Shown here piece after piece: positions 3,885 through 62,818 of a DNA stretch of 64,000 bases (positions are counted from its first letter, which is position 1; every line of letters starts with the position of its first letter). The notes below the pieces were generated by a model. That model was not told where the DNA came from and did not search any database. It saw nothing but the letters and a program-made list of their open reading frames with translations. The position numbers and the translations under genes are program-made. This stretch comes from an uncultured Bryobacterales bacterium (GTDB lineage Bacteria > Acidobacteriota > Terriglobia > Bryobacterales > UBA6623), in the NCBI GenBank assembly GCA_951813065.1, contig CATOTH010000002.1, forward strand, positions 310,001 to 374,000. Reading direction: 5' to 3'.

Positions 3885-5330
3885 ATGAGTTTATCGACTA
3901 ACAGGGGTACCTCGCTCGGATTCCGCGCAAGCATCGGCCTTCTGGCTTCCGCGGCAATCGTTCTAGGCAGCGGAGCTGACGCCCAGCCGGAACGGGCCAA
4001 CGTCGTCTTTATGCTGGCGGACGACTTGGGCTACGGTAGCGTGTCGTGGTACGGCGGTGACATCCCGACTCCAAATATCGACTCTGTCGCGCACAACGGC
4101 GTCGGCTTCGTTGCGGGCTACGTGACAGCTCCGGTTTGCAATCCTTCGCGCCCTGCGCTGATGACCGGCCGCTACCAGCAACGCTGGGGGAAGGAGCTCA
4201 ACTCGCAGACCGTTCCCCCCGAGGGTGCGGCCCGCAAGTCGCTTCCCAAGAGCGAGGCAACGCTTGCCGACGCCCTCAAGGCCGCGGGCTACGCGACCGG
4301 TGCGATCGGCAAATGGCAACTCGGAATGGCTGACGGCTACCACCCGCTGGACCGCGGCTTCGACTCCTTCTTCGGGATGCCATCCGGATCGCGTTTCGTC
4401 GACCCGTCCTGGCCGAACGCGCGGATCGCGCCGGGCCACGAGGATCCCGGGGAGCCGGACGGCACGGGGCGCATCCGAGGACTCTTCCGCGGTCGGGATC
4501 CCGTGGCGATGAACGAATACCTGACGGACCGTCTCGGCCGCGAGGGCGTCGAGTTCATCAGACGCCATAAGGACGAGCCCTTCTTTCTCTACCTGGCGTT
4601 CCACGCGCCCCACGGACCAATCCAGACGATCGACAAGTACTACGAGCGGTTTCCCGGGATCGAGAACGAGACCGCCCGGATCTACGCGGCAATGATCAGC
4701 GCGCTCGACGATTGGGTCGGCGCCGTGCTAGCCGAGTTGCGCCGGCATGGATTGGAGCAGAACACGCTTGTGTTCTTTGCCAGTGACAACGGCGCCGCCA
4801 GGCAAAGCGACATCGACGGGAAACGCAACTCGCCGCTGATCGGCCACAAGCGCAACTTATACGAGGGAGGGATCCGCGTCCCCTACGCACTGCAATGGAA
4901 GGGACGCATCGAGGGAGGGGCAAGATTCGAGTCCCCAGTCAGCACGCTCGACATCTTGCCCACTGCGCTCGCCGCCGCCGGGGCTGACCCTGGTGGGCCC
5001 GCCAACCTCGACGGGGTCAACCTGCTGCCATTCCTGGAAGGCGAGCGGGCTGGTCGCCCCCACGAGTACCTGGTCTGGCGTTCCGGCCCGAATGCCGCGG
5101 TGCGCGCCGGGCCCTGGAAGCTGCTGCTGACGAGAAGCGGCTTGGCCCGACTGTACAACGTCCAGCAGGACCCCGGCGAATCAACGGATCTTTCCTCCAG
5201 CCAGCCCAGCGTGGTCGAGGACCTGCGCGAAGCGTTCGTGCGCTGGGAGCGCGACAAGGTCGCTCCGCGCAAGGGTTCCCGCAGCGTCAAGACGAAATAC
5301 AACGGCGACCTGATCGAGTGGCACATCTAG
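3885..5330 (+). CDS. Secreted arylsulfatase-family sulfatase
   Basis: The 481-residue protein belongs to the alkaline phosphatase/sulfatase superfamily and would hydrolyse sulfate esters, probably on exported or environmental polysaccharides. An N-terminal signal peptide (to about residue 33) is followed by the metal-binding start NVVFMLADDLGYG. The sulfatase signature CNPSRPALMTGR has Cys85 in the C-x-P-S-R context that a formylglycine-generating enzyme converts to formylglycine. Other family landmarks are AIGKWQLG, HAPHGPI and FFASDNGA. Length is normal for the family. The start is the ATG at 3885, conserved in position with the dead upstream duplicate. No sulfatase-maturing enzyme is encoded in the window. 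Substrate specificity cannot be read from sequence alone. Confidence 0.92.
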   Translation: MSLSTNRGTSLGFRASIGLLASAAIVLGSGADAQPERANVVFMLADDLGYGSVSWYGGDIPTPNIDSVAHNGVGFVAGYVTAPVCNPSRPALMTGRYQQRWGKELNSQTVPPEGAARKSLPKSEATLADALKAAGYATGAIGKWQLGMADGYHPLDRGFDSFFGMPSGSRFVDPSWPNARIAPGHEDPGEPDGTGRIRGLFRGRDPVAMNEYLTDRLGREGVEFIRRHKDEPFFLYLAFHAPHGPIQTIDKYYERFPGIENETARIYAAMISALDDWVGAVLAELRRHGLEQNTLVFFASDNGAARQSDIDGKRNSPLIGHKRNLYEGGIRVPYALQWKGRIEGGARFESPVSTLDILPTALAAAGADPGGPANLDGVNLLPFLEGERAGRPHEYLVWRSGPNAAVRAGPWKLLLTRSGLARLYNVQQDPGESTDLSSSQPSVVEDLREAFVRWERDKVAPRKGSRSVKTKYNGDLIEWHI

Positions 5331-5355
5331 CGCGGATCCGCCAGTCGGCGCGGGA

Positions 5356-8300
5356 CTAGAAGTCCGGAGGGGGTCGCGGGACGAGATTCTTGACAGGAAT
5401 CCTGACGGTATTGCTGATGAACAGGCCCTGGGCGATCCAGAGCGGTGTCGCCGGGTTGTCGGCGAGATCCGTATTCGTCCGCAGGTTGACCTGGTAGACC
5501 CCGACAGCGCCTTCCATCAACCCGACGAATTCCACCTGGGCGGTGCGGCCGCCAAACTGCGAGGACACGAAGTCGGCGGCGTTGAACGGCACCTTGGCGA
5601 CGGTTCCCTCGGGCGTGGGCTGGCCCGTCACCACTGCGCTCTGATTGTCGGTGAGCCCGAGGCCCGTGGCGAAGACAGCGATCAGCTCGCCCGGCACAAG
5701 CGGGTTGTCTTCCGTGATCTGCGAGAACGGCTCGTTGCCGCAGCACAGGTGCGTGCCGCCGCTCGCGAGCGTCAGCAAGACATTGGCCTCGAGTTGTTCG
5801 TTGACGTCGGCGGTGTTGGGGTCGTCCTCTGGAATCATCGTGCCTTGTGCGGCGTAAGTGATCTCGTTGCCCTGCTTGCCCGGCATGCGCGCCGTCAGAA
5901 TGATCGACGGCGGCGTGGTCCCGTCCTCGAGCACTCCGTTCTCGCGATTGGTGGTGACCTCGATGCCGGCTCCGGAAGAAACCTCGAAGCCATAGGGGAT
6001 CGTGTTGCCCTCCACCCCGAGTATGCGTGCCACGATCTGCATCCTGACCGAGCCGACCACTTCCAGGACGCGCGCCGTGACCTCGGGATCGCCGATACCC
6101 GAGTTGATCGCCCGGACCAGGATGTTGCGCACGATCAGCAGGGCAGTGCGGCTGTCCGCGACATCGGCCTCGGTCAGGGTGTAGCTATAGCTGCGGTCGC
6201 GCACGGTGATGGTCACCGTGTCGCCGGCCGTGGGCTCGCCCTCGAAGTCAAAGTCGGCGCGAGCGGAGAAGAACCCGACCGTGCCCGCAGACGCTATCAC
6301 GTCGGGGTCACCGTCCCCTGCGTTGATGAGCTCGATGAACTTGTCACGTACCTGCTCCGGGCTCTCGTCGCCGGGCGACCTGTAGTAGTATTCGCGACCG
6401 TTGATGATAATCCGGCCGTCCGCGCCCTCCTGGGTGAGCTGGAGGTTCTCGGTGTCGTTATTGGTGGGGTCGTCATCCCTGGGGCGGTCCGGGACGGTCA
6501 CGCCCACGGAGCCCTCGGCAACACCGGTGGCGTGCACGGCGAGGGCCTGCCGGGGCTCTGGCCCGTCCAAGGCGAAAAGGCCCGGCGCGGCGCGCACCGA
6601 CTGGCTGGCCCGCGCGGCGGAAGTCAGCACGCTGCCATCAGGCATGGTCCGGCGCACGTAGGTGCTGTAGCCACCGCCCTCAAGAGTCCAAGGAACCTGG
6701 AAATTGATCTGTTCCGGAGAAACCATCCGCAGCGGCGCGAGCTTTCCGTTGATCAGCACCTGCACGCCGGCCATCTCGGTCGGCAAGGCGACCCCATCGG
6801 GCGTACTCGCCGTCTCGCTGGCGAGGTCCGTGCCGAAGATCGACGCGATCGTTCCCGGCGGCAGGTCCCGGGCATCCGATCCTCCCGTCAGGCGCGACCC
6901 GGACGTGGTCGCGTCCAGCTCGACTCCGCTGTTGCGCAACTGGACCTGCGTCCAGTTCCCGCGCGGACCCTCAATCTTCGCCCTCAATTCCGCCCGGTAA
7001 CTCACCTTGCCGCGGGCCAGTGTGGGCCCCGACACCTCGATGGTCGTGGGAGAGCCGGGGGTGATGGTGATCGAGAACGGCAGGCTGTTGCCGACCGGGC
7101 CAACCTCACGATGCACCAGCTCAAGCGTCTCGATCTGGTCGATCGTGCGCTCAACGATCACCTCGGGATCCTCGCCGTTGTCCAACTCCACGATGTAGTT
7201 CAAGCGGTCGACGAAACGCTCCGGGATATCCCCTTCGGGCACGGTGAAGGAGTATTTCCTGCCATTGATATCCAAGGTCACAACGTCCCCGGGCCGCGCC
7301 TCCCCGCCGAACGTGATCGTGCCCGTCGCATGGCGGCCGACCCCCAGGGCCGGGGTCGCGGTGACAGGCAGGTCGGCAGTGTTGTTTATCAGGTCTACGA
7401 CCTTGTCGCGGACGTCCTCGGCGGTTTCGCCTTCGACCGTGGTGTAGAAGATTTCCTGATCGTCGAGCGTGATCTTGATTTCCTCACCCCCCGGCAGCAC
7501 GGGAGCCAACTGGGATTCGTCGACCTCCGTCTCGGTGTTGTCCACGGGATTTTCCTGGTCGAACTCAAGGTGGCCGCGACTGTGAATGGCGACTGCCGCC
7601 GCGTTGCGGATCCCGTCAAGCTCGATCCAGTCCTCGCCCGGGGTAAAGACCAGAACCCGGCGGGTAAACGGGTCCGTGACATACAGGTTCTGGCCGTCGT
7701 AAGCCATCGAGGAGGGCGAGCGCACGTTGCCGGGGCTCTCCGACTCGGTGAGCTGGATGAAGTCTGCCTGGCCGATCACGGAATCGGCGGCGACGCCGTT
7801 CGCGGTGGGAATCTGGTCGTAGACCATGATGCGGTCGTTGCCCGCATCGGAGACGAACAGGCTCTGCCCGACCACAAGTGCGAACCGCGGAAAACTCAGG
7901 GTGCGCTCGCAGCGTCTCGGGTAGCGCGGCACGTCCGGGTCGATCTCGCCTCGCACTGGCGGCAGGGAGATTGTGAGGAACTCGTCCGTCCGGGGAGTCT
8001 CGTTCTCGGTCAGGCTGCCGTCGTCGTCGAGCGGGCCGAGCGCCGCGCACAGGGCCTCGGCATCATTCGGCAGGCCCGAGGTGAAGTCCGGCTGGCCGAT
8101 CACCACATCCGCAGAGACATGGTTCTGGGTGGGGACGGAGTTGTAGATCAGCACCCGGTTGAATCCGAGATCAGCGACGAACATCCTGCCTTGGGAGACG
8201 GTCACGGAGACGGGATCCAGTAGCCGCTGGGCGTCGGGGTCGTACTCGCCTTGCGTGAGGTCCGCCTGGTGGCGCGTGTCGAAATCCGGCTGGCCAACGA

Positions 8301-9024
8301 CGATGTCGGGTGTCTGGCCGTTCGAAGTCGGAATGGAGTTCCAGATCAGAATCCGGCTGTTCTGGGTGTCGGCGACGAACAGCCGGCCGCCGTCCAGCCA
8401 CACGCCCTGCGGCCCACGCATGCTGGTGGCCGAGGTGCCCGGCATGTTGCTCGTGAAGTCGGCCTGCCCGACGACAACCTCGGGCGGGGTCCCGTTGGCC
8501 GTTGGAATCGATTGCCACAGCAATACGCGGTTGTTGTTCGTGTCCGCAACGGCAAGCCGGATGCCATCGCTGTGAACGGCCGACGGATTGTTCAGCCCGG
8601 GAACTTCCGGCAAGTCGGACGAAGCGGTCGTCGCAAAGCCCGCCTGGCCCAGCACGACAGAGGCGACGCCCACGCAGGCCGGGCACTTCCGCTGTTGCGG
8701 GGGCAGGACGTCTGCAGCCGGTACGAAGGTATCCACAGCGTTGTAGATGAGGATCCGATTGTTGACCGGCTGGGCTCCCAGACGGTTGCCGTCTGCGATG
8801 AAGAGCCGGTTGCCGGCGTAGGCCACACCCTGCGCGGCGCCCAGAACCGTGCGACTCGCGGTCGGGTCCTGTCGCGTGAAGCTATCCTGGCCGATCACCA
8901 GACGGGCGCCTTGGTTCTTCACCCACACCGGCTCGGCTCCGGCCCAGCCTGGCAGCAGGCCCGCAGCCAGGGCCAGAACCGTGGCGGGAAGCAGCTTGTA
9001 CTGATCGAATCGCATGCGAACCAT
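5356..9024 (-). CDS. Large secreted NHL-repeat protein with TIGR03437-type modules
   Basis: The 1222-residue protein begins with a signal peptide (MRFDQYKLLPATVLALAAGL, preceded by a possible earlier ATG). Residues about 40-470 form a six- to eight-fold repeat with recurrent VIGQPDFT/VVGQADF and RVLIYNSVPT motifs, the pattern of an NHL beta-propeller. Two segments (PGTIASIFGTDLASET near residue 720 and NPLVPGELIAVFATGLG near 1100) match the C-terminal TIGR03437 module that is expanded in Solibacter. Between and around them are four copies of a 50-60 residue module of the type DxVTIxIxxRxYxYTV. Function is unknown; a surface or matrix role is likely. Its ATG lies 2 nt beyond the stop of the SDR gene at 9027, so the two are probably cotranscribed. 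Confidence 0.85.
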   Translation of the reverse strand: MVRMRFDQYKLLPATVLALAAGLLPGWAGAEPVWVKNQGARLVIGQDSFTRQDPTASRTVLGAAQGVAYAGNRLFIADGNRLGAQPVNNRILIYNAVDTFVPAADVLPPQQRKCPACVGVASVVLGQAGFATTASSDLPEVPGLNNPSAVHSDGIRLAVADTNNNRVLLWQSIPTANGTPPEVVVGQADFTSNMPGTSATSMRGPQGVWLDGGRLFVADTQNSRILIWNSIPTSNGQTPDIVVGQPDFDTRHQADLTQGEYDPDAQRLLDPVSVTVSQGRMFVADLGFNRVLIYNSVPTQNHVSADVVIGQPDFTSGLPNDAEALCAALGPLDDDGSLTENETPRTDEFLTISLPPVRGEIDPDVPRYPRRCERTLSFPRFALVVGQSLFVSDAGNDRIMVYDQIPTANGVAADSVIGQADFIQLTESESPGNVRSPSSMAYDGQNLYVTDPFTRRVLVFTPGEDWIELDGIRNAAAVAIHSRGHLEFDQENPVDNTETEVDESQLAPVLPGGEEIKITLDDQEIFYTTVEGETAEDVRDKVVDLINNTADLPVTATPALGVGRHATGTITFGGEARPGDVVTLDINGRKYSFTVPEGDIPERFVDRLNYIVELDNGEDPEVIVERTIDQIETLELVHREVGPVGNSLPFSITITPGSPTTIEVSGPTLARGKVSYRAELRAKIEGPRGNWTQVQLRNSGVELDATTSGSRLTGGSDARDLPPGTIASIFGTDLASETASTPDGVALPTEMAGVQVLINGKLAPLRMVSPEQINFQVPWTLEGGGYSTYVRRTMPDGSVLTSAARASQSVRAAPGLFALDGPEPRQALAVHATGVAEGSVGVTVPDRPRDDDPTNNDTENLQLTQEGADGRIIINGREYYYRSPGDESPEQVRDKFIELINAGDGDPDVIASAGTVGFFSARADFDFEGEPTAGDTVTITVRDRSYSYTLTEADVADSRTALLIVRNILVRAINSGIGDPEVTARVLEVVGSVRMQIVARILGVEGNTIPYGFEVSSGAGIEVTTNRENGVLEDGTTPPSIILTARMPGKQGNEITYAAQGTMIPEDDPNTADVNEQLEANVLLTLASGGTHLCCGNEPFSQITEDNPLVPGELIAVFATGLGLTDNQSAVVTGQPTPEGTVAKVPFNAADFVSSQFGGRTAQVEFVGLMEGAVGVYQVNLRTNTDLADNPATPLWIAQGLFISNTVRIPVKNLVPRPPPDF

Positions 9025-60488: not shown

Positions 60489-60507
60489 CCGGAGAGCCAG
60501 GAGCGAA

Positions 60508-60511
60508 ACGA
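60508..60511 (+). repeat. Left direct repeat ACGA flanking the 745-bp cassette
   Basis: ACGA occurs immediately outside both ends of the cassette (60508-60511 and 61257-61260), as expected for a 4-bp target-site duplication. Confidence 0.65.
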
Positions 60512-60580
60512 TTGGGGATTAAATACCGTCTTACCCAAGCTCCACCGGGCGGCCCCGTGGGCGCTTGGGCTCGGGCTGGC

Positions 60581-60892
60581 TCACTGGCCGCCCTCCATGG
60601 CTTTCCCAACGAGCTCTTGTGGTTCGGGTTCGGGCTCGGGCTCAATAAAGTCTTCTACGACAAGGGACTTGAAGGAATCAACCGCCTTCCCGGCCCCAAT
60701 CATGAACAGCTCCTCTTTCGACGCGCCCAGCTCCTCCAGCCTTGGAAACACGACAGAAGTGAAGATACTCAGGATGTGCTCGCTTTGTTTCGGGGGCATT
60801 GCCCTCAAGAGCAGGAAGAATGCCATCCCGTTCAGGAGTTCCAGTGTCTTGATATGGCCCTGGAGAATCGCTATTTCTTCCTTGGCTGTCAT
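60581..60892 (-). CDS. Small acidic protein inside the inverted-repeat cassette
   Basis: The 103-residue protein starts with ATG at 60892, which overlaps the stop of the preceding gene (ATGA), so the two are coupled. The N-terminal two-thirds is probably helical (MTAKEEIAILQGHIKTLELL) with a hydrophobic stretch (LNGMAFFLLLRAMP). The end has an acidic repeat, EPEPEPEP, from the codon pattern gaGCCCGAG. I find no known domain. It could bind the membrane or a partner protein; no function is inferred. Confidence 0.6.
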   Translation of the reverse strand: MTAKEEIAILQGHIKTLELLNGMAFFLLLRAMPPKQSEHILSIFTSVVFPRLEELGASKEELFMIGAGKAVDSFKSLVVEDFIEPEPEPEPQELVGKAMEGGQ

Positions 60893-61170
60893 GGAACTTG
60901 TTTTCCGATCCTTTGGCGGGCTACCACCGGGCTAACCTGCCCACTTCCAATCAGCTGCCCCTCTAGGCTGGCGAATCTGGCGTTCAGGTCGTTGTGCTCC
61001 CCAGCCAGGATTTCAACCTTAGCCGAAACGTCATCGATCCGCTTCCCAATGCGCTCCTCGACCTTGGTCAGCATCTTCCATAGCGAGAACAGCACGACGG
61101 CTGTAAGGGTGATCAGCGCCGCCGGTGTCGATGAGATGGCCTCCACTCCTCCCGCTACTGTGTTCAACAT
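60889..61170 (-). CDS. Small membrane protein with coiled coil inside the inverted-repeat cassette
   Basis: With ATG at 61170 the product has 93 residues. A single transmembrane helix (PAALITLTAVVLFSLWKML) is followed by a heptad-like region with VEERIGKRIDDVSAKVEILA and HNDLNARFASLEGQLIG. The layout, membrane anchor plus coiled coil, recalls small phage holin-like or tail-assembly proteins, but no homology is clear. It lies first in the two-gene cassette and overlaps the next gene by four bases. A longer open frame to 61482 runs through the right terminal repeat and is not credible. Confidence 0.6.
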   Translation of the reverse strand: MLNTVAGGVEAISSTPAALITLTAVVLFSLWKMLTKVEERIGKRIDDVSAKVEILAGEHNDLNARFASLEGQLIGSGQVSPVVARQRIGKQVP

Positions 61171-61189
61171 AAACGCACTATAGCGTGCT

Positions 61190-61207
61190 GCTAGTAAACA
61201 TGCTAGC
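61190..61207 (-). promoter_or_regulatory. Possible operator-like repeat near the cassette genes
   Basis: GCTAG-TAAACAT-GCTAGC at 61190-61207 contains two GCTAG repeats that are also inverted, about 20 bp upstream of the first cassette gene. A TATAGT on the minus strand (61184-61179) lies beside it and may be the -10. This is weak evidence. Confidence 0.3.
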
Positions 61208-61285
61208 GTAATGGCGTTGGCAAGTGGTTTTGGGTAAGACGGTATATAATCCCCAAACGATTCGGGCAGGCTGCGCTCTTGCAGT

Positions 61286-61767
61286 GCTCTCCCGCCGTTC
61301 CGCCTGAGCGCGGTCACCCGGGCGCTCGAATCGCTGCCGCGCGGAGCCACGCAGTGGAGCACGCGGTCGATGGCCGAGGCGACCGGCGCGAGTTCGGCGA
61401 CGGTCAGCCGCATCTGGCGGGCGTTCGCGTTGAAACCGCACCGCAGCGAGACGTTCAAGCTGTCGCGAGATCCGCTCTTCATCGAGACAGTGCGCGATAT
61501 CGTCTGGCTGTACCTGCATCCGCCCGAACGGGCCGTGGTGCTGTGGGTCGACGAAAAATCACAGGTTCAAGCCCTGGATCGCACGCAGCCGGTGCTGCTC
61601 TTGCCGGTCGCACCTTGCGCCACGATGCGCGCCCGCAGGGCCAGCGTCTGGGACGTCTTCCTGCGCCGGAGCCAGCGCTGTAGTTCCCGCCGCTGACCGT
61701 CTGTCACCTCTGGAGTCGCTCGTGTATGGTGGTTTGGCATCGCCTGCTCCCTGTCTGGGCTGACCAA
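61286..61767 (+). pseudogene. Rearranged IS630-family transposase remnant
   Basis: On the plus strand, about 61300-61605 encodes the middle of an IS630 transposase: TRALESLPRGATQWSTRSMA, then SSATVSRIWRAFALKPHRSE, the DDE-type VVLWVDEKSQVQALDRTQPV. On the minus strand, 61767 to about 61606 encodes the N-terminal helix-turn-helix of the same family (VTDGQRRELQRWLRRRKTSQ, LALRARIVAQGAT). The two parts should be adjacent on one strand, so an inversion or fragment fusion near 61606 has scrambled the element. The C-terminal half is missing. Confidence 0.82.
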
Positions 61768-62442: not shown

Positions 62443-62818
62443 GAGGCCAGTGTACTTAGCCGCCGGATTCGGGTAGCCGGTTGTACCGCGATGGTCTACC
62501 GTGCAGAGGGCAGCTTTTTCGATGCACGACTCAGCCTCCTCCGCTGGGCGTGAAGCACCCCGGACGGTGCTTCGACTGCCGTCCGCGCGTCTCGTTCCGA
62601 AATGCAAGGGTCGGTCACGTCGGCCTCAGGTCCTGAGCGGGCCGGCGCGACCTGCGATCCAGCGTCCGGAGCGAGGCTGGGACCGAGAATCAATGCGGGA
62701 CGGACTTCGCGAGGCGAACGTCCCTCGCTGCCATGACTCTCTCGCCACCACGCGACAAGCGGTCGTGGACGGCGACGTATATAATTCCCATGCCGAGTGG
62801 CGGCGATCAGGGGAGATT
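62443..62818 (+). promoter_or_regulatory. Divergent region between nitroreductase and SDR genes
   Basis: This 376-bp gap is open in one frame but the translated sequence is Arg-rich and unlike either neighbour, so it is treated as non-coding. A perfect TATAAT at 62779-62784 (within GTATATAATTCC) stands 35 bp upstream of the SDR start and is a good -10 candidate. No second promoter facing the nitroreductase was identified. Confidence 0.45.

Follow-up and report, generated by a model that had tools for sequence, protein, structure and literature searches.

A 741-bp cassette at positions 60514 to 61254 of the 64,000-nt window (the whole stretch of DNA analyzed here, from an uncultured Bryobacterales bacterium, GCA_951813065.1, CATOTH010000002.1) is very probably an IS1595-type mobile insertion cassette (MIC), that is, a unit without a transposase that would be moved by an IS1595-family transposase in trans. 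It has inverted repeats of the insertion sequence (IS) type, a target duplication, and passenger genes with no transposase among them, which is what defines a MIC (PMC3913671). Its repeats are IS1595-like, its 8-bp duplication is AT rich, and related (IS1595) transposases are encoded in the same genome. The features of the cassette, with positions counted in the window, are as follows.

60506 to 60513, no strand: left 8-bp target-site duplication, AAACGATT, identical to 61255 to 61262.
60514 to 60538, plus strand: left terminal inverted repeat, 25 bp, GGGGATTAAATACCGTCTTACCCAA, 19/25 identical to resident IS1595 element ends.
60531 to 60584, minus strand: ORF3, 17 amino acids (aa), MSQPEPKRPRGRPVELG; coordinates set by eye, homology support absent.
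60581 to 60892, minus strand: ORF1, 103 aa, helical with an acidic EPEPEPEP stretch, without known family (sequence, profile searches, structure model).
60889 to 61170, minus strand: ORF2, 93 aa, predicted N-terminal membrane segment and long coiled-coil helix (sequence, profile searches, structure model).
61230 to 61254, minus strand: right terminal inverted repeat, 25 bp, GGGGATTATATACCGTCTTACCCAA (minus strand, read inwards), agreeing with resident IS1595 ends at 20/25 positions and without mismatch over the first 13 bp.
61255 to 61262, no strand: right 8-bp target-site duplication, AAACGATT, identical to 60506 to 60513.

The two terminal inverted repeats differ at a single position (consensus GGGGATTA[A/T]ATACCGTCTTACCCAA; sequence of the cassette-type ends, GGGGATTATATACCGTCTTACCC) and are the sole inverted pair of at least 20 bp in the whole window (≤2 mismatches, arms within 4 kb); ten Markov-shuffled windows yielded no such pair. 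The original prediction had described a 745-bp unit bounded by 27-bp repeats with one mismatch (60512 to 60538 and 61230 to 61256) and by a 4-bp ACGA at both outer borders. The inverted pair is present and ACGA does stand on both sides, but as the middle of the 8-bp AAACGATT rather than as a 4-bp duplication, and the borders shift to 741 bp, with the outer 2 bp of the longer repeats belonging to the duplication as its TT/AA. The 27-bp register arises because the duplication starts with AA and ends with TT, thereby extending the inverted match by 2 bp. Combinations of duplication and repeat of 4/27, 6/26, and 8/25 bp are all formally possible; we prefer 8/25, since it has the longest duplication and agrees with the IS1595 family, and since two further 2-bp coincidences would be needed if the 8-bp duplication were not real. 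The duplication has A or T at six of its eight positions, AT rich as in the IS1595 family, and the target, CGAA-ACGA-TTCG, reads as a near palindrome. The GC content is 56% in the cassette versus 63.5% in the window.

Twelve IS1595-domain matches above the family cut-off were detected in the same genome, and the ends of the resident elements were located by searching for inverted repeats flanked by 8-bp direct repeats. Two of these elements, L083 and L084, are identical 1731-bp copies; their ends read GGGGATTATATACGAGATTACCCAG, they are flanked by perfect 8-bp duplications (ATTACAAG and TTTCCGAA), and their identity at different targets suggests recent activity. Their ends and those of the cassette have the architecture GGGGATTATATAC...TTACCC in common, with 20/25 positions identical for the right cassette end and 19/25 for the left, and no other place exceeds 16/25 over 240,804 positions of this genome's DNA. 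The first 13 bp of the right cassette end are identical to the ends of L083, L084, and L085, and among the examined loci this 13-bp tip (GGGGATTATATAC) occurs only at IS1595 ends and in the cassette. The ends had initially been assigned to no named family; that view does not hold, as they are of the IS1595 type and are shared, at 20/25 positions, with resident autonomous elements that make 8-bp duplications. The repeats of the cassette and of L083/L084 differ mainly in an internal 4-bp block, CGTC in the cassette versus GAGA in the resident elements. Because this block differs at both ends alike, the comparison suggests a near variant of the resident L083 group, not found now, as the helper; given this difference, the resident transposases would not necessarily accept the cassette ends.

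The transposases of this resident group are 328-aa proteins, and the autonomous relatives (1731 to 1805 bp) encode a transposase together with small passengers. L086, at 1805 bp and with the duplication AATCCGGT, matches the cassette repeat at 16/25 positions. The passenger of L083/L084 (C3) is a 115-aa form that has kept the N terminus and an HNH domain and is missing the middle, while L085 (C6), with one recognizable end and its left end not found, carries a 258-aa DNA methylase-HNH passenger. The cassette thus resembles L083/L084 and L086 in repeat architecture and 8-bp duplication; those elements differ from it in that they carry their passengers (methylase/HNH and small ORFs) beside a transposase and have GAGA in place of CGTC. 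Other elements were also observed in this genome. L087 (C8) is a 2514-bp IS1595 element with near-perfect ends, an 8-bp duplication (GATCTATT), a transposase, and several small ORFs. At L095:2476-3513 (C6), a 1038-bp IS1595-type element has quite different ends (GGCTCAATTAGCGAAA...) and the duplication TTTCGGAT; the genome therefore harbors IS1595 ends of several types. Directly upstream of the L085 element, a reverse-transcriptase-like ORF (L085:33-788; by eye, of the group II intron type) was noted.

ORF1 and ORF2 overlap by ATGA at 60889 to 60892 and together fill most of the cassette. In each region, codon scoring with the usage of neighboring genes ranks the minus-strand frame of the ORF highest among the six, in agreement with the two coupled minus-strand genes, one for a membrane/coiled-coil protein and one for an acidic EPEPEPEP protein, of the original prediction. 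In single-sequence models, ORF2 is a short N-terminal helix followed by one 60-residue helix (membrane segment into coiled coil; pLDDT 79), and ORF1 is two long helices followed by an acidic tail of low confidence (pLDDT 72). Neither protein matched Pfam (E ≤ 0.001), and no significant match was obtained in NCBIfam or PADLOC; PHROGs gave weak matches to unknown families only (best E = 0.018). Searches by tblastn of phages and plasmids gave no match, viral contigs contained no relatives, and a fold comparison with the single-sequence models gave no match at an E value of 0.001. Relatives of ORF1 were found neither in the order nor, by peptide patterns, in the species genomes, and no relatives of ORF2 were found in the phylum sample. 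From these predictions, the pair is likely to comprise a coiled-coil protein anchored in the membrane (ORF2) and a soluble helical partner translated along with it (ORF1). The earlier guess of a toxin-immunity or phage-type module for this pair gained no positive support from any of these sequence or fold searches; toxin-immunity, addiction, and phage exclusion are possible functions, none favored over another by the findings.

Neither ORF1 nor ORF2 gave a transposase, zinc ribbon, or nuclease match in Pfam, NCBIfam, PHROGs, or PDB, which bears out the claim that the cassette encodes no transposase. The DDE_Tnp_IS1595 domain (PF12762) was likewise not matched, and the cassette is therefore not an autonomous IS1595 element. 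No promoter-like site or known RNA family was found inside it. A possible third frame, ORF3, has a GTG start that overlaps the ORF1 stop codon (GTGA coupling), a stop codon inside the left repeat, and an AT-hook-like PRGRP core; it is a weak candidate and may be a chance occurrence. The resident element L086 has a small ORF with RMRGRPVKYPMPEP that resembles ORF3. This likeness (RMRGRPVKYPMPEP...) covers too few residues to carry weight, and searching plasmids with the small ORF of L086 returned nothing.

The contents of the cassette also bear on its origin. As a variant of the MIC explanation, a larger autonomous, passenger-bearing IS1595 element (tIS) could have lost its transposase by internal deletion. 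The resident relatives, with a transposase and small passengers, and the termination of the possible ORF3 within the repeat are consistent with such a history, but no IS1595 coding remnant was found inside the cassette, and its two intact genes take up its length. We regard this origin as plausible, though not as more likely than not.

Ends starting with GG and 8-bp duplications are found in several transposon families. IS6 is one of the families with both properties (PMC7986276). The cassette might thus be a MIC of another family with 8-bp duplications (IS1, IS6, IS66, IS256, or ISL3) whose likeness to IS1595 is convergent, and the difference of its inner 4 bp from the resident IS1595 elements would fit this reading. 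Against it stand the 20/25 identity at the tip position, with the first 13 bp exact, and the inventory of the genome, in which ISL3, IS256, and IS1595 were sought: ISL3 is absent, and the IS256 type is present as two fragments only. Convergence therefore seems improbable to us.

An autonomous, very small insertion sequence, with ORF1 and ORF2 as an unrecognized transposase, is a still weaker candidate. The 741-bp length and the two overlapping ORFs recall IS1, which is of similar size and also has overlapping ORFs, and the two proteins have no relatives that would settle their function either way. However, a predicted membrane segment with one long helix and a short protein made up of helices and a disordered acidic tail, neither of them with a transposase-related match, make this very unlikely, as does the match of the cassette ends to a resident IS1595 group whose transposases are 328-aa proteins. 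An invertible segment, or another site-specific recombination unit acting between inverted sites, is hardly credible: the inverted repeats do enclose two genes, and the partly palindromic flanks let the inverted match run imperfectly to 35 bp, but the 8-bp flanks repeat each other perfectly in direct orientation and only imperfectly in inverted orientation, the cassette encodes no recombinase, and the repeat tips recur at transposon ends.

The IS1595-type MIC is thus the reading that we follow. The original prediction of a non-autonomous element whose passengers are its entire contents stands, given the ends, the duplication, and the absence of a transposase; its mobilization in trans we infer. 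An IS1595-family transposase provided in trans would recognize the 25-bp cassette ends and move or copy the 741-bp unit to a site behind the CDP-alcohol phosphatidyltransferase gene, where joining at a cut staggered by 8 bp and subsequent gap filling would leave AAACGATT on both sides. The expected empty site would be GAGCG-AAACGATT-CGGGCAGG, with a single AAACGATT.

The cassette sits between the CDP-alcohol phosphatidyltransferase gene and IS630 debris. This debris, directly downstream of the cassette at about 61312 to 61752 of the window, is a rearranged IS630-family transposase (NCBIfam match) in which a forward piece adjoins an inverted piece. In all 10 of the 10 genus relatives, the cassette is absent after the same phosphatidyltransferase gene, and in most of them the sequence conserved among relatives starts within ∼50 bp of the stop codon of this gene. 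The DNA identity of the relatives is ∼74 to 79%, and no alignment of their intergenic sequence is possible; for this reason they show absence of the cassette and not a clean empty site. The proposed check for empty sites thus yielded ten relatives without the cassette, and a precise site with a single duplication was not seen.

Both exactly and with up to 3 mismatches, the 25-bp repeat occurs in the genome only as the cassette's own two copies, and at ≤3 mismatches it was found in none of 256 other genomes of the order and none of 395 others of the phylum sample. A slightly degenerate pattern of the exact repeat was absent from 84,980 species genomes (a set that possibly does not include the genome studied here) and from viral contigs. 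The cassette is single copy, and a second insertion with the same exact ends was not found in the genome, the order, the phylum sample, or the public collections. The original prediction had taken a repeat found only here as an argument against a transposable unit. For the exact 25-mer this is indeed what was found, yet the reading stands, since resident transposons carry the repeat tip at their ends.

Looser repeat patterns matched in the family and order at about the rate of a reversed-pattern control, i.e., at background. The best loci among these (L039/L065, beside a Thoeris pair, as well as L053, L040, and L063) had no partner repeat and were attributed to chance. The Thoeris pair, at L065:3407-4866 and 5151-8672 in another genus of the family, lies next to a type IIG restriction-modification gene; its ThsA is of the macro-domain type and its ThsB is TIR-like (PADLOC E values down to 1.4e-63 and 3.8e-77). 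Within the window, a solitary IS1595-type tip with one mismatch, GGGAATTATATAC, lies at 62777 to 62789 (minus strand), ∼1.5 kb from the cassette and without a partner; 0.01 matches to this tip pattern would be expected in the window. A solitary tip in L097/L100 was also without a partner.

Among described elements, MIC231 of Bacillus cereus has IS231 ends and is mobilized by the IS231A transposase in trans, and mic-qnrD of Proteeae has a 2-bp duplication, with no transposase with matching repeats found (PMC3913671). Like both, the cassette consists of inverted repeats and a target duplication around passengers, without a transposase, and as for mic-qnrD, no transposase with repeats matching its exact ends was found. 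Unlike both, it has IS1595-type ends and an 8-bp duplication, and its cargo is small proteins rather than peptidase or resistance genes. In MTnSag1 and tISCpe8, both of the IS1595 type, 25-bp repeats and 8-bp duplications go together with an AT-rich target preference and passengers (PMC5704250), and ISApl4 has ends that begin with GGGG and 8-bp AT-rich duplications (PMC12561309). The cassette is like tISCpe8 and MTnSag1 in its IS1595-type, 25-bp repeats, its 8-bp AT-rich duplication, and its passengers; these two elements have an IS1595 transposase of their own and carry a gene for lincosamide resistance, whereas the cassette has no transposase. With miniature inverted-repeat transposable elements (MITEs) it shares being non-autonomous, repeat bounded, and short, but MITEs are defined by the absence of intervening ORFs between their ends (PMC7986276), and the cassette has two intact coupled ORFs.

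The cassette is thus ordinary in kind, as an IS1595-type MIC; what is unusual is its orphan end variant and its cargo without relatives. A more far-reaching reading, which we consider doubtful, is that it represents a separate IS1595 end-specificity group (inner CGTC) that spreads an undescribed coupled pair of membrane anchor and soluble partner, perhaps with the AT-hook-like micro-ORF, as sole cargo for a function open to selection, phage exclusion or addiction for instance. To the transposase-less passenger cassettes, the present element adds an IS1595-type example from a GC-rich, little-studied lineage. Within one resident IS1595 group, a common 13-bp tip (joined by TTACCC in the best match) is combined with a variable internal 4-bp block, which offers a testable hypothesis for transposase-end specificity, and the passenger pair, without detectable relatives, may have a selected function.
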